From the NCBI RefSeq assembly GCF_014873755.1, contig NZ_JADBEG010000001.1, positions 2,501 through 66,500 on the forward strand: DNA of 64,000 nt. The letters are read 5' to 3'. The position numbers and the translations under genes were made by a program. Below the pieces are notes generated by a model. The model was given only the letters and a program-made list of their open reading frames with translations, made no database searches and was not told where the DNA came from. Below, one piece after another: positions 32,696 through 36,649 of this stretch. This DNA comes from Amycolatopsis lexingtonensis (GTDB lineage: Bacteria > Actinomycetota > Actinomycetes > Mycobacteriales > Pseudonocardiaceae). How positions within the stretch are numbered: the stretch's first letter is position 1; each line of letters begins with the position of its first letter.

Positions 32696-33649
32696 ATGCG
32701 CGCACTCACGTGGCGGCCGCTGACCGGCGCGGACGCCAGGGCGTCGGCCGACCTGCTCAACGCCATCGAGACCGTGGACCGGATCGGGGAGCACTACACC
32801 GAGGAGGACACGCTCCAGGAACTGATCGACCCGTACGCGGACCTGGAGCGGGCGAGCCTCGCGGTGTTCGACGGCGAGGTCATGGTCGGCTACATGAAGG
32901 TCCGCCACAAGGCGTCCGCCGAGGAAGTCCACCGGGTCTTCCTGGACGGCGGGGTGCACCCGGCCTACCGCCGTCGCGGCATCGGGACGGCGCTGGTGGA
33001 AGCGGGGGTGGCGGCGGCGAAGGTCGTGCACGCCCGGCACCACCCGGCGCTGCGGCTCGTGGTCGACGTCCACAAGGCCGAGCACATCGCCGGGGTGCCC
33101 GAACTCGTGCGCTCGCAGGGGTTCGCGCCGGCCCGGTACTTCCAGCGCATGGAGCACCCCCTCGGCGCGGCGGGCGAAGTCGTGTTGCCGGCCGGGGTGC
33201 GGATCGAAGGGTGGTCGCCGTCGGCCGACGAGGACTTCCGGGCGGTGCGGAACGCGGCCTACCGCGACTTCTGGGGCGCCGCGCCGATGCCGGCGGACCA
33301 GTGGCGGAACAAGATCGTCAACCAGACCTTCCAGCCGGAAGTCAGTTTCCTGGCGCGGGACGGCGGGACCGCGGTCGGCGTGCTGGTGACGATGTCGTGG
33401 GCGGCCGACACAGCGGCCACCGGCGTCCGCGACGCGCACTTCATGGTCGTGGGGACGCTGCGGGAGCACCGGCGGCGAGGGGTGGCCGGCGCGCTGCTGG
33501 GGCACGCGCTGCGGGCCGCCGCCGGGCTCGGGTACGACCAGGCCAGCCTGAACGTCGACTCTGCGGACCCGGCCGGGGCGTCCGGCGTGTTCGCGAAGGC
33601 GGGCTTCACGCCGAAGCAGCGGTACGTGCGCTGGGCCCTGGAGGTCTAG
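32696..33649 (+). CDS. tandem GNAT acetyltransferase
   Basis: A 317-residue protein with two GNAT domains. The first has the acetyl-CoA loop VHPAYRRRGIGTALVEAGV (about residues 87-105); the second has VVGTLREHRRRGVAGALLGH (about 250-270) and a typical C-terminal AGFTPKQRYVRWAL. The layout resembles mycothiol synthase and other double-GNAT proteins, but the substrate cannot be named. The TAG stop (33647-33649) is part of the CTAG that is the duplicated target of the insertion sequence directly behind it, so the protein is unaltered by the insertion. Confidence 0.87.
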   Translation: MRALTWRPLTGADARASADLLNAIETVDRIGEHYTEEDTLQELIDPYADLERASLAVFDGEVMVGYMKVRHKASAEEVHRVFLDGGVHPAYRRRGIGTALVEAGVAAAKVVHARHHPALRLVVDVHKAEHIAGVPELVRSQGFAPARYFQRMEHPLGAAGEVVLPAGVRIEGWSPSADEDFRAVRNAAYRDFWGAAPMPADQWRNKIVNQTFQPEVSFLARDGGTAVGVLVTMSWAADTAATGVRDAHFMVVGTLREHRRRGVAGALLGHALRAAAGLGYDQASLNVDSADPAGASGVFAKAGFTPKQRYVRWALEV

Positions 33650-33657
33650 CTTGAGTT

Positions 33658-35127
33658 TTAACCTGTTTGGCGGGGTCGTGGGTTGCTGGACTTGGTTTTC
33701 TTGCCGTGTTTGGGTTTTTGCTTGTTCGTGCCGGTGACGGTGTGGACGTCGTGGCGTGTGGCGGGCTGCTGGTTGGGCAGTCCCGCGGGTCGTCCGGGGC
33801 CGGGCCGGGAAGGTTTCGGGACACGGGCGGGACAGGCCAGTTGTGGACGCAGGTTGCGAAACCCCCGTCGGATCCGTGCCGGGCTGAGTCGCTGGGCGGG
33901 GCGGGGTTTCTCCCAGGGGCGGCGCAGATCCTCGGTGAGGTCGCGGGCGAGGCGGAGCTGGGTGTAGGCGATCAGAAGAAGCCAGGTCCAGCGGTCGGCG
34001 GCGTCGGCTGAGCGCAGTTTCGGGGTGGTCCAGCCGAGGGTTTGCTTGAGCATGCGGAAGGTGTGCTCGATGTCGAACCGGCGCAGGAAAGCCTGCCAGG
34101 CCAGATCGACCTCGGCGACCTCGAGGCCGGTGCGGGAATGCCAGAGCCACACGGGTTTCGGGATCGCGCCGGAAGGCAGCCGCTGGACCTGCAGAAGGAT
34201 GACGGTGCCGTCGAGGATGGGCAGGTCTCCGGTGTGGCCGGTCCAGGCGGTGCGGGAGGTGAGCTTGGGGTGCAGCCGGTCCCAGGCCCGGATCAGTGCT
34301 GGGCCGTAGAGCCGGGTCGTGGTCTCGATGGTGATATCCGGCTCGCCCCAGGTGGCCGGGTCGCCGAAGGCGAACTCGGCGCCGTGGCGGGCGGGGCGGC
34401 CGGGGCTGGGGCCGGGCCGCAACGGCGGCGCGGGACGGCGCAGCACCCGGTCCGACCGCATCCGCACCAGCACGACGACCGGGAGATCGGCCAGCACGTG
34501 CGCGAGCCGGGGTCCGTCGTAGCCGGCGTCGGCCACGAGCAGGATTTCCGGATCCCCTGGTGACCAGTGTCCGGCGGTGATCAGCCGGTCCACGACGTCG
34601 CGGATCTGGCGGGCGGTCACGCTCGCGGTGTCGTCTCCGGGCGCGAGTCGGACCGCGTCCAGCGGCGCGGTCCACGAGTGCCGCCCGCTCTCCAGAGCGG
34701 CGACGATCGAGTAGGGCCAGCCCGGCACCATGATGTGCTGGTCCTTGCCCCGGCCATAGGTGTGACACAGGATCCGTTGCGGGCTCGTGTGTGCTTCCGG
34801 GCGCAGCCAGCAGGTGACGTCCACCGCCAGCACCAGCCGCCCGTCCGCGGCACGAGGCAGCGACACCGTGGTCAGGGCGGTGCGTAACCGGTGGAAGTCG
34901 ACCCGGCCCTGGGCCAGCGCGGCATAACCGCTGCCATGCCCGCGGCGATGCTCACCGGTCAGTGACAACTCCGCGACCGAGCGGACCGGGCCGTCCACGC
35001 ACAACACCGCGTCGGTCAGCTCGAACAACGCGTCCGCCCGCCGGGGCAGACAACGGTAGAACTCCTGCCGCAACGCCGACAGCTCCCCGGCCGCATCGAC
35101 GTCCCCAGCATGGTGCACACTGATCAA
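33658..35127 (-). CDS. DDE transposase of insertion sequence A
   Basis: A 489-residue transposase of the IS4/IS701-like superfamily, in the group whose members begin with a FYRCLPRRADALFELTDAVL segment. Acidic catalytic positions are plausible at LVLAVDVTCWLRP (D), LLVADAGYDGPRL (D) and FLRRFDIEHTFRMLKQTLG (E). The basic C terminus (KQKPKHGKKTKSSN) runs into the left inverted repeat. TTG 35127 or GTG 35118 could be the start. A hairpin lies just upstream. The family name within the IS classification is not certain. Confidence 0.85.
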   Translation of the reverse strand: MISVHHAGDVDAAGELSALRQEFYRCLPRRADALFELTDAVLCVDGPVRSVAELSLTGEHRRGHGSGYAALAQGRVDFHRLRTALTTVSLPRAADGRLVLAVDVTCWLRPEAHTSPQRILCHTYGRGKDQHIMVPGWPYSIVAALESGRHSWTAPLDAVRLAPGDDTASVTARQIRDVVDRLITAGHWSPGDPEILLVADAGYDGPRLAHVLADLPVVVLVRMRSDRVLRRPAPPLRPGPSPGRPARHGAEFAFGDPATWGEPDITIETTTRLYGPALIRAWDRLHPKLTSRTAWTGHTGDLPILDGTVILLQVQRLPSGAIPKPVWLWHSRTGLEVAEVDLAWQAFLRRFDIEHTFRMLKQTLGWTTPKLRSADAADRWTWLLLIAYTQLRLARDLTEDLRRPWEKPRPAQRLSPARIRRGFRNLRPQLACPARVPKPSRPGPGRPAGLPNQQPATRHDVHTVTGTNKQKPKHGKKTKSSNPRPRQTG

Positions 35128-35128
35128 C

Positions 35129-35187
35129 TGAAGCCTTTGGTTCGATCTTCCATCTGTCGCAAGAGGAATGATCGACCAAGGGCTTCA
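35129..35187. promoter_or_regulatory. hairpin in the transposase leader
   Basis: Arms 35129-35147 and 35170-35187 pair over about 18 bases with one bulge around a 22-base loop. They sit between the right inverted repeat and the transposase start. The hairpin may block read-through translation or transcription from outside promoters; that is inferred. Confidence 0.6.
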
Positions 35188-35259
35188 CTCATGATCAACC
35201 AGGGTCTCACCCAGCCACGCAAACGTTAAAACTCAAGCTAGGGCCTGTATCGAAGTCGG

Positions 35260-35763
35260 TCAGAGCCATTCGTCGATAGCTGCGATGTGGATGGTGGCTT
35301 CGTAGCGGACGGCGAGTTTGTCGTATCGGGTGGCCACGGCGCGGTGGCGTTTGAGGCGGTTGATGCCGCACTCCACGGCGTGACGCTGCTTGTAGGTTTC
35401 GGGGTCGAAGGCCGGTGGCCGGCCGCCCTTCGACCCCTTGGCCTTGCGGTGCGCGTCTTGATCAGCTTTGCTCGGAATTGTCGCCTTGATCCCACGTTTG
35501 CGCAGGTGAGCCCGATTGGCCTTGGAGGTGTAGGCCTTGTCCGCCAGCACCCGGTCCGGCCGTGTGCGTGGGCGCCCGCCACCGGTCAGCCGGGGCACCC
35601 GGATACCACGCAGGACGGGAATGAACTGCGGGCTGTCACCACGCTGCCCGGCGGTCAGCACGATCGACAACGGCTTCTGCCCCTGCTCACAGCCCAGATG
35701 CAGCTTCGTGGTCCACCCACCGCGGGACCGGCCCAACGCATGATCGTCCGGCTCGGCGGTCAC
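35260..35763 (-). CDS. IS5-family transposase, orfB (C-terminal part)
   Basis: A 167-residue frame holding the C-terminal catalytic half: [40 protein letters not shown], and [20 protein letters not shown] (final Glu of the DDE triad and the Y-(2)-R-(3)-E-(6)-K-type region). It has no proper start of its own; in the family it is made as a fusion with orfA by -1 frameshifting. The joined product would be 317 residues (36212 to 35260). Confidence 0.88.
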
Positions 35764-36212
35764 CCCGCCCGGCGACTCAGCTTGCAGATCCCCCTTTTAC
35801 GCGCACCTGCGGCATGCTGATGCGCCCGAGTGATCGTGGAGTCCACGCTCACGTCCCAGACGATCCGCCCCGCCGCCTCGGCCAACGCCTGCAATGCGGT
35901 CAATATCCGCCTCCAGGTGCCATCACGCTGCCACCGCCGAAACAGCCCATACGCCGCAGCCCACGAGCCATACCCAGCGGGGATGTCCCGCCACGGCGCA
36001 CCGGCACGCACCCGCCACCGGATCGCGTCGATCAGCTGCCGCTTGGTCCACATCGACGGTCGCCCGGGCCGCTTCGGCTCGGGCAGCAACGGCTCCAGCG
36101 CTGCCCACTGAGCGTCGGTCAGGTCGAACCGCCCCGCCACCGCTAGGGTGTCCACGAGGTCTCCGGTGTTCAGGTTCTTCTTGGTCGACGAACCATCTAC
36201 CGGAGACCTCAC
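35760..36212 (-). CDS. IS5-family transposase, orfA (N-terminal part)
   Basis: A 150-residue frame starting at GTG 36212. It has the DUF4096-type helix-turn-helix segment ([40 protein letters not shown]) and the first catalytic Asp in [19 protein letters not shown]. After AGARKRG the frame leaves the conserved sequence and stops, as expected when the ribosome does not shift. Confidence 0.88.
35790..35798 (-). promoter_or_regulatory. -1 frameshift site AAAAGGGGG
   Basis: On the minus strand the zero frame reads AAA AGG GGG ATC. Slipping back one base on the G-run gives GGG GAT CTG CAA, which restores the family sequence [13 protein letters not shown]. This is the normal programmed frameshift of the IS427 group, not a mutation. 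Confidence 0.8.
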
Positions 36213-36286
36213 CCATTCCCGGCCACCGACACGCTCAACGGCGCCGACTCCAGCTCAACCTGCCCGAAACGACTTCGATACAGGCC

Positions 36287-36649
36287 CTAGGTCGCGGCCC
36301 GCGTCCCTTGGTGGTGGAAGATCCGCCACTGCCCGTCGTCCTCGCGACGCCACAGCGAAGTGCGGTGAGAGCGCCGCCCGGCGCGCTCGGAGGTGTACTT
36401 CACCATGACGACGCCGTCCGCGACGAGCTGGCCGCGCATGTCCCGGACCTCGATCGGCTCGCCGTCCGCGGCCGATTCCGCCACGACGCGGAGGGCCGCG
36501 GCGTAGTCGAGTTCGCGGCCGGACGTGCCGAACTCGTGGAAGTCCGGCGCGAGCAACCGCGCGAACCGAGGGGCGTCGGCCCGGCAGTCGCCGCGCAAGG
36601 ACTCGCGTTCGGCGGCGATCGCCGCCGCGATCTGGGCTTTTTCGTTCAC
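36287..36649 (-). CDS. SnoaL-like / DUF4440 protein
   Basis: A 120-residue cytoplasmic protein of the NTF2-like fold: LRGDCRADAPRFARLLAPDF, FGTSGRELDYAAALRVV, then SLWRREDDGQWRIFHHQGT. Members are small enzymes or binding proteins; no substrate can be given. GTG 36649. Its stop codon TAG (CTA on the plus strand, 36287-36289) consists of two bases of the duplicated target and the last base of insertion sequence B. The insertion therefore ends exactly at the stop and leaves the protein whole. Confidence 0.82.
   Translation of the reverse strand: MNEKAQIAAAIAAERESLRGDCRADAPRFARLLAPDFHEFGTSGRELDYAAALRVVAESAADGEPIEVRDMRGQLVADGVVMVKYTSERAGRRSHRTSLWRREDDGQWRIFHHQGTRAAT

Follow-up and report, generated by a model that had tools for sequence, protein, structure and literature searches.

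Adjoining insertion sequences at overlapping stop codons in Amycolatopsis lexingtonensis, and a probable preference of an IS701-like lineage for IS5-family termini

The locus

The genome of Amycolatopsis lexingtonensis (GCF_014873755.1) is a single contig of 10.74 Mb with 71% GC. A 64,000-nucleotide stretch of it (NZ_JADBEG010000001.1, positions 2,501 to 66,500; the window, hereafter) holds two insertion sequences (ISs) side by side between two convergent genes, the IS701-like element A and the IS5-family element B. CTAG is found at positions 33646-33649, 35238-35241, and 36287-36290 of the window. Removal of both elements in silico leaves GGAGGTCTAGGTCGCG, a site at which a GNAT gene and a SnoaL gene ended in overlapping TAG stops. 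A sequence-only reading of the window had described two elements at one CTAG common to these stops, and its coordinates and open reading frame (ORF) ends are correct. Both genes retain their ends, with the SnoaL stop taking in position 36287, the last base of B. The features are as follows.

32696..33649, plus strand: GNAT acetyltransferase gene, 317 amino acids (aa), TAG stop in CTAG
33646..33649, no strand: left CTAG, outer target duplication of A; contains the GNAT stop TAG (33647-33649)
33646..35241: element A with both CTAGs, IS701-like
33650..35237, minus strand: element A core, 1588 bp, ends CTTGAGTTTTAAC / GTTAAAACTCAAG
33658..35127, minus strand: A transposase, 489 aa, single ORF; NCBIfam NF041680, Pfam DDE_5
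35238..35241, no strand: CTAG common to A (right duplication) and B (TA 35239-35240; G 35241 is the first base of B)
35238..36290: element B with both CTAGs, IS5 family
35241..36287, minus strand: element B core, 1047 bp, IS5 family
35260..35763, minus strand: B transposase ORF 2, 167 aa, overlapping ORF 1; DDE_Tnp_1; NF033580 positions 114-257
35760..36212, minus strand: B transposase ORF 1, 150 aa; DUF4096; NF033580 positions 2-113
36287..36290, no strand: right CTAG; 36287 is the last base of B, 36288-36289 the TA duplication, then the target G; contains the SnoaL stop
36287..36649, minus strand: SnoaL/DUF4440-type gene, 120 aa, TAG stop in CTAG

Element A has perfect inverted ends of 13 bp inside the CTAGs, or 17 bp with the CTAGs counted. 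Four full copies occur in the genome (99.7-100% identical), each with CTAG on both sides. Like members of the IS701 family, A has a 4-bp target duplication, a one-ORF transposase, and a YREK motif that lacks the tyrosine, with F in its place in A (F(2)R(3)E(6)K, residues 347-361). Unlike them, it matches the NCBIfam IS701 models only under their cutoffs (NF049999, 66 bits against 170; NF033540, 31 bits against 150); the fitting model is NF041680, with 567 bits against a curated cutoff of 440. In PMC2266710, the IS701 family is presented as a split from IS4, with a typical length of 1400-1550 bp, which the 1588 bp of A exceeds. The A end CTTGAGTTTTAAC also departs from the consensus given there, ---YACT-Y--YR, which according to that paper does not represent the whole family.

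Element B conforms to the IS5 family in its inverted ends, TA duplication in CTAG/TTAG, split transposase frame, and match to NF033580, for which its ORFs score 114.7 and 137.5 bits, both over the cutoff of 110. We infer that these overlapping ORFs would be expressed by frameshift. The inverted ends of B are perfect over 21 bp, CTAG included, and the genome has two identical copies, each with CTAG at both ends. No unusual feature of B was seen relative to the TA-duplicating IS5 family and related miniature inverted-repeat transposable elements (MITEs).

Target duplications and insertion order

Relatives of A flanked by CTAA/CTAA (L039) or TTAG/TTAG (L060, L241) indicate that A duplicates 4 bp (YTAR). 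For other relatives, a duplication of 5 bp (CTNAG) is the better fit, and in a few the two flanks differ. IS5-type copies in TTAG are flanked by TTAG and, at the opposite end, by CTAG; therefore, they duplicate TA, start with G, and end with C. Thus, the flanks of relatives match the duplication lengths proposed by the sequence-only reading (4 bp for A and TA for B). Its CTAG/TA target choice also holds in further copies, with CTAG used by 4/4 A copies and 2/2 B copies of the own genome and YTAR/TA by relatives.

The same reading had A inserting before B. Because CTAG is palindromic and B starts with G and ends with C, the window does not record the order. Both A-then-B and B-then-A were rebuilt from the window letters, and each is identical to the observed sequence, so the claimed order falls, and order from the window alone was rejected as a line of evidence. 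Relatives can be more informative: if the IS5 element starts with a base other than the genomic one past its far end, the order can be told from the outer duplication of A. This rule was applied to 31 abutting sites (L288 and L294 left out), of which 15 were uninformative, 13 had no far end found, and 3 were scripted as A second. The clean informative sites are L039 and L184, and both have A second, the opposite of A-then-B. A hand reading of the mutated far end at L060 also gives A second. L243 was scored likewise but is not counted, since its partner has 5 mismatches.

Copies of the A family at IS5-type ends

A second A copy in the own genome adjoins an IS5-type end at a common CTAG, like the one in the window. 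Its neighbor is a MITE of about 260 bp with B-type ends (L020:1501-1760), and the joined pair sits in a stop codon. The corresponding locus in genomes G069 and G038 is without either element, and the stop reads TTAG and CTGA, respectively.

Abutment was scored by a register test, the presence of TGT at bases 6-8 of the neighboring sequence. A scan of genome contigs gave 80 loci, 36 with recognizable ends; three with poor ends (L171, L207, L217) were excluded and 22 copies from the genus added, for 55 rows or 54 distinct copies (L168 repeats L036). The later set drew on 96 loci (31 + 65), of which 24 had both ends and 19 remained after removal of repeats (L257, L286, L299, L317, L318). End calling allowed at most 2 mismatches per end and 3 in sum in the earlier set, and at most 1 per end in the later one. 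The test was devised after the first 54 copies, and the split at 65% identity was set after the full table.

The register test was positive for 27 of the 55 rows, including 13 of 20 genus copies. Across the 73 distinct copies, 33 abut an IS5-type end: 30/49 of those with at least 65% identity to A, and 3/24 of those below it (Fisher p 1e-4). Control sites were positive at 1/341 in the own genome and 5/239 in G055 (pooled, 6/580; p 2e-32 against the close copies), and at 34/587 further YTAR/CTNAG sites within the loci of the A copies (p 4e-21). The excess over these regional controls is about 25-fold in odds and base-exact. Among the 19 later copies, scored with the test unchanged, 6/6 were positive at 65% identity or more (G186, G211, G237) and 0/13 below (nine from G258). 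Across 110 flanks, the only peaks in TGT offset are those at 8 (17 flanks) and 9 (12 flanks), with no more than 4 at any other. A stricter test, in which an inverted partner is bounded by the same TA/TNA, was positive at 16/55 copies versus 14/587 regional sites; its TA-only form was positive at 5/20 genus copies versus 0/193 background YTARs. Two of the strict matches, L176 and L177, have neighbors of 100 and 286 bp whose IS5 type is not shown. At L260, an IS5-like end adjoins one base out of register and was scored as a miss.

Ten transposase-like ORFs were picked from the neighboring sequences, and nine match IS5-family models at E <= 2e-5, three of them above the curated cutoff (L125, L180, L191); B is the tenth IS5-family partner. 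The partners span two NCBIfam IS5 models and differ in their end sequences. This variety, set against the concentration of abutment in one A clade, points to the transposase of A as the chooser. Taken together, adjacency to IS5-type ends looks like a habit of the A lineage rather than a single incident. A sites without an IS5 end show no clear residual motif, G after CTAG being slightly commoner (13/32 flanks versus 45/154). In Saccharopolyspora rosea, the five copies returned (L179, L184, L185, L191, L192) all lie in CTNAG pentamers against an end that is IS5-type or MITE-like.

CTAG as a landing site

The sequence-only reading also described CTAG as rare and the landing site as selectively silent. 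A census of twelve 20-kb stretches of the own genome (240 kb, 89% coding by a simple codon-usage gene caller) found 48 CTAGs where base composition predicts 625, and rarity is thereby borne out. Three of the 48 lie in two overlapping convergent stops, 8 in a single stop, 31 between genes, and only 6 within genes. Since CTAG falls mostly outside gene interiors, CTAG-directed elements are largely harmless through their choice of target. Silence thus holds as a property of CTAG, but A-family sites are not enriched at stop codons beyond what CTAG itself provides. Targeting of stop codons by A was rejected as a candidate, with 16/52 A-family sites at stops versus 15/65 CTAGs (p 0.4); the 52 are the 55 rows minus three with short flanks, with one copy double (L036 = L168).

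Within the own genome, 3/4 A copies are at stop codons, and sites of A, B, and B-ended MITEs combined reach 11/13, versus 11/48 CTAGs (p 8e-5). Two of the 13 (L019, L024) were scored by hand from an intact right end. This result serves only as a lead, given a small set chosen by hand out of 20 pattern matches, for which the backward-pattern control gave 19.

Short elements with B-type ends occur elsewhere in the own genome (L019, L021-L027, L020:1501-1760), with lengths of 164-221 bp in the six measured. A stop codon coincides with 8/9 hand-listed sites, among them one in L026 at the end of a short ORF that we take to be pqqA-like. The MITEs (L020) contain a roughly 55-bp inverted repeat (CTTGAATGACTCATTCAGGACC...) that recurs widely elsewhere in the genome (93 matches, mostly double-counted by strand) and may predate the MITE. 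In G064 (L141:2094-4180), two B-type IS5 copies adjoin with one CTAG in common.

Related loci

No empty site at the window locus was found in a close or same-species strain among the genomes compared. In G030, another species, CTAG is present at the SnoaL stop, where it also takes in the stop of a different convergent gene. This 3.3-kb locus has no GNAT gene; in its CTAG (L010:1495-1498), the SnoaL TAG is instead overlapped by that of an upstream peptidase-like gene. The two TAG stops seem to delimit the loss or gain of the GNAT gene (window segment 32644-33649). In G069, the GNAT stop is TGA and without CTAG, and the SnoaL match is limited to 84/120 residues. Separately, one A insertion is common to G039, of the same genus, and Amycolatopsis sp. 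NBRC 101858.

Competing explanations

Our preferred explanation, which we hold to be probable, is that an A clade (at least 65% identity) prefers YTAR or CTNAG at IS5-family termini, and that in the window B would have come first and A would have entered its left CTAG. The earlier view, that two independent CTAG-specific insertions met by chance at a tolerated site, A and then B, draws on the use of CTAG/TA by both elements, the rarity of CTAG and its position mostly outside gene interiors, and the 19/49 close copies that lack an IS5-type end. We judge it unlikely, because abutment in 30/49 close relatives is far above the 6/580 of background sites and the A-then-B order cannot be read from the sequence. 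The preference could instead belong to IS5-family elements that home to the CTAG duplications of A. The geometry is symmetric, and L166 resembles this order. However, this would require the preference in each of several IS5 types, yet distant relatives of A are mostly without it, and A is second at L039 and L184, all of which makes homing by IS5 quite improbable. Survivorship, in which insertions accumulate in IS-rich expendable DNA and recognition goes no further than YTAR, has in its favor that IS5-type ends are commoner in regional controls than in the genome background. The base-exact excess persists over those same regional controls, though, and only 2/29 IS5-type elements of the genus adjoin another IS5-type end; we regard survivorship as the least probable of these accounts.

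Several observations nevertheless weigh against a preference of the A clade for IS5 ends. The close copies without an IS5-type neighbor include 2/4 in the own genome. The register test was post hoc for the first copies, and only the 19 later copies, from few genomes, are unaffected by that choice. Ten genus copies beyond the 20 (L045 and L062 of G073 plus eight omitted) gave 3/10 positives; the eight (L041, L042, L061, L130-L134) gave only 2/8 (L041, L131), for 35/81 overall. Moreover, L131 and L062 look like chance matches within another repeat of G073. The duplications at L166 are CTAA/CTAG, as if the IS5 element came second, with no far end found. L190 adjoins a long coding ORF, the neighbor of L038 resembles another transposase type, and the flank of L188 is just 150 bp. 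An IS5 transposase is not evident in the flanks of L166, L189, L190, L240, and L243.

A model of target choice

If the A clade does prefer these termini, its transposase would target a YTAR (or CTNAG) duplicated or created at an IS5-family terminus. The cue would be the tetramer plus bases common to IS5-family ends, chiefly TGT at element positions 6-8. A would then enter just outside the IS5 element and duplicate the tetramer; therefore, both elements keep complete ends, as is observed in the window. By precedent, B would have inserted first into the CTAG of both convergent stops, followed by A into the left CTAG of B. Both genes survive because duplication of CTAG or TA regenerates both TAG stops, and also because CTAG is rare and seldom intragenic in the 240-kb sample.

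More broadly, we lean slightly toward the proposal that an actinomycete DDE clade evolved recognition of an IS5 end signature (YTAR/CTNAG, four bases, and TGT). A 4-bp YTAR duplication would pair with TA-type and a CTNAG-type one with TNA-type IS5 elements, and unbroken IS5 elements would act as safe harbors. In a bolder version, every clade of NF041680 may seek out a repeat of its own. Distant A relatives in G073 (L045, L062, L130, L131, L132) have GTCCGTGAAGGG-type short repeat flanks in 5/5 copies seen, and those in G008 (L133, L134) have GACTC-TTCATGAC-type repeat flanks in 2/2. Such flanks hint at clade-specific repeat targets across the family.

Known systems and implications

Elements that target the ends of other elements are an already known kind. 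IS231A of Bacillus thuringiensis, a member of the IS4 family, reportedly inserts into Tn4430 ends. It is like A in being an IS4-type element with insertion specificity, reportedly in favor of the ends of another transposon. It differs from A in its partner family and in its duplications, which are 10-12 bp in PMC2266710, whereas A duplicates 4 bp and has IS5 partners. PMC8269217 and PMC11187229 describe IS4321 and IS5075, of the IS1111 group, as targeting the terminal inverted repeats of Tn21-type transposons. They customarily insert at the end of a different element family, as proposed here for A. However, IS4321 and IS5075 have DEDD transposases and insert into the Tn21-type repeat, whereas A has a DDE-type transposase and inserts just outside, leaving the IS5 ends complete. 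The literature searched yielded no account in which IS701-like elements target the ends of IS5 elements, which is weak evidence of absence, since most subscription journals were outside its coverage.

A warning follows for the reading of such loci: insertion order should not be read from nested palindromic targets. The difference between A clades supplies natural positive and negative transposases for mapping recognition. The RNA-guided IS1111 group already provides examples of end-seeking elements; a DDE lineage that reads a common IS5 end would, if true, show protein-based finding of safe sites. It would also explain the back-to-back ISs in high-GC actinomycetes.

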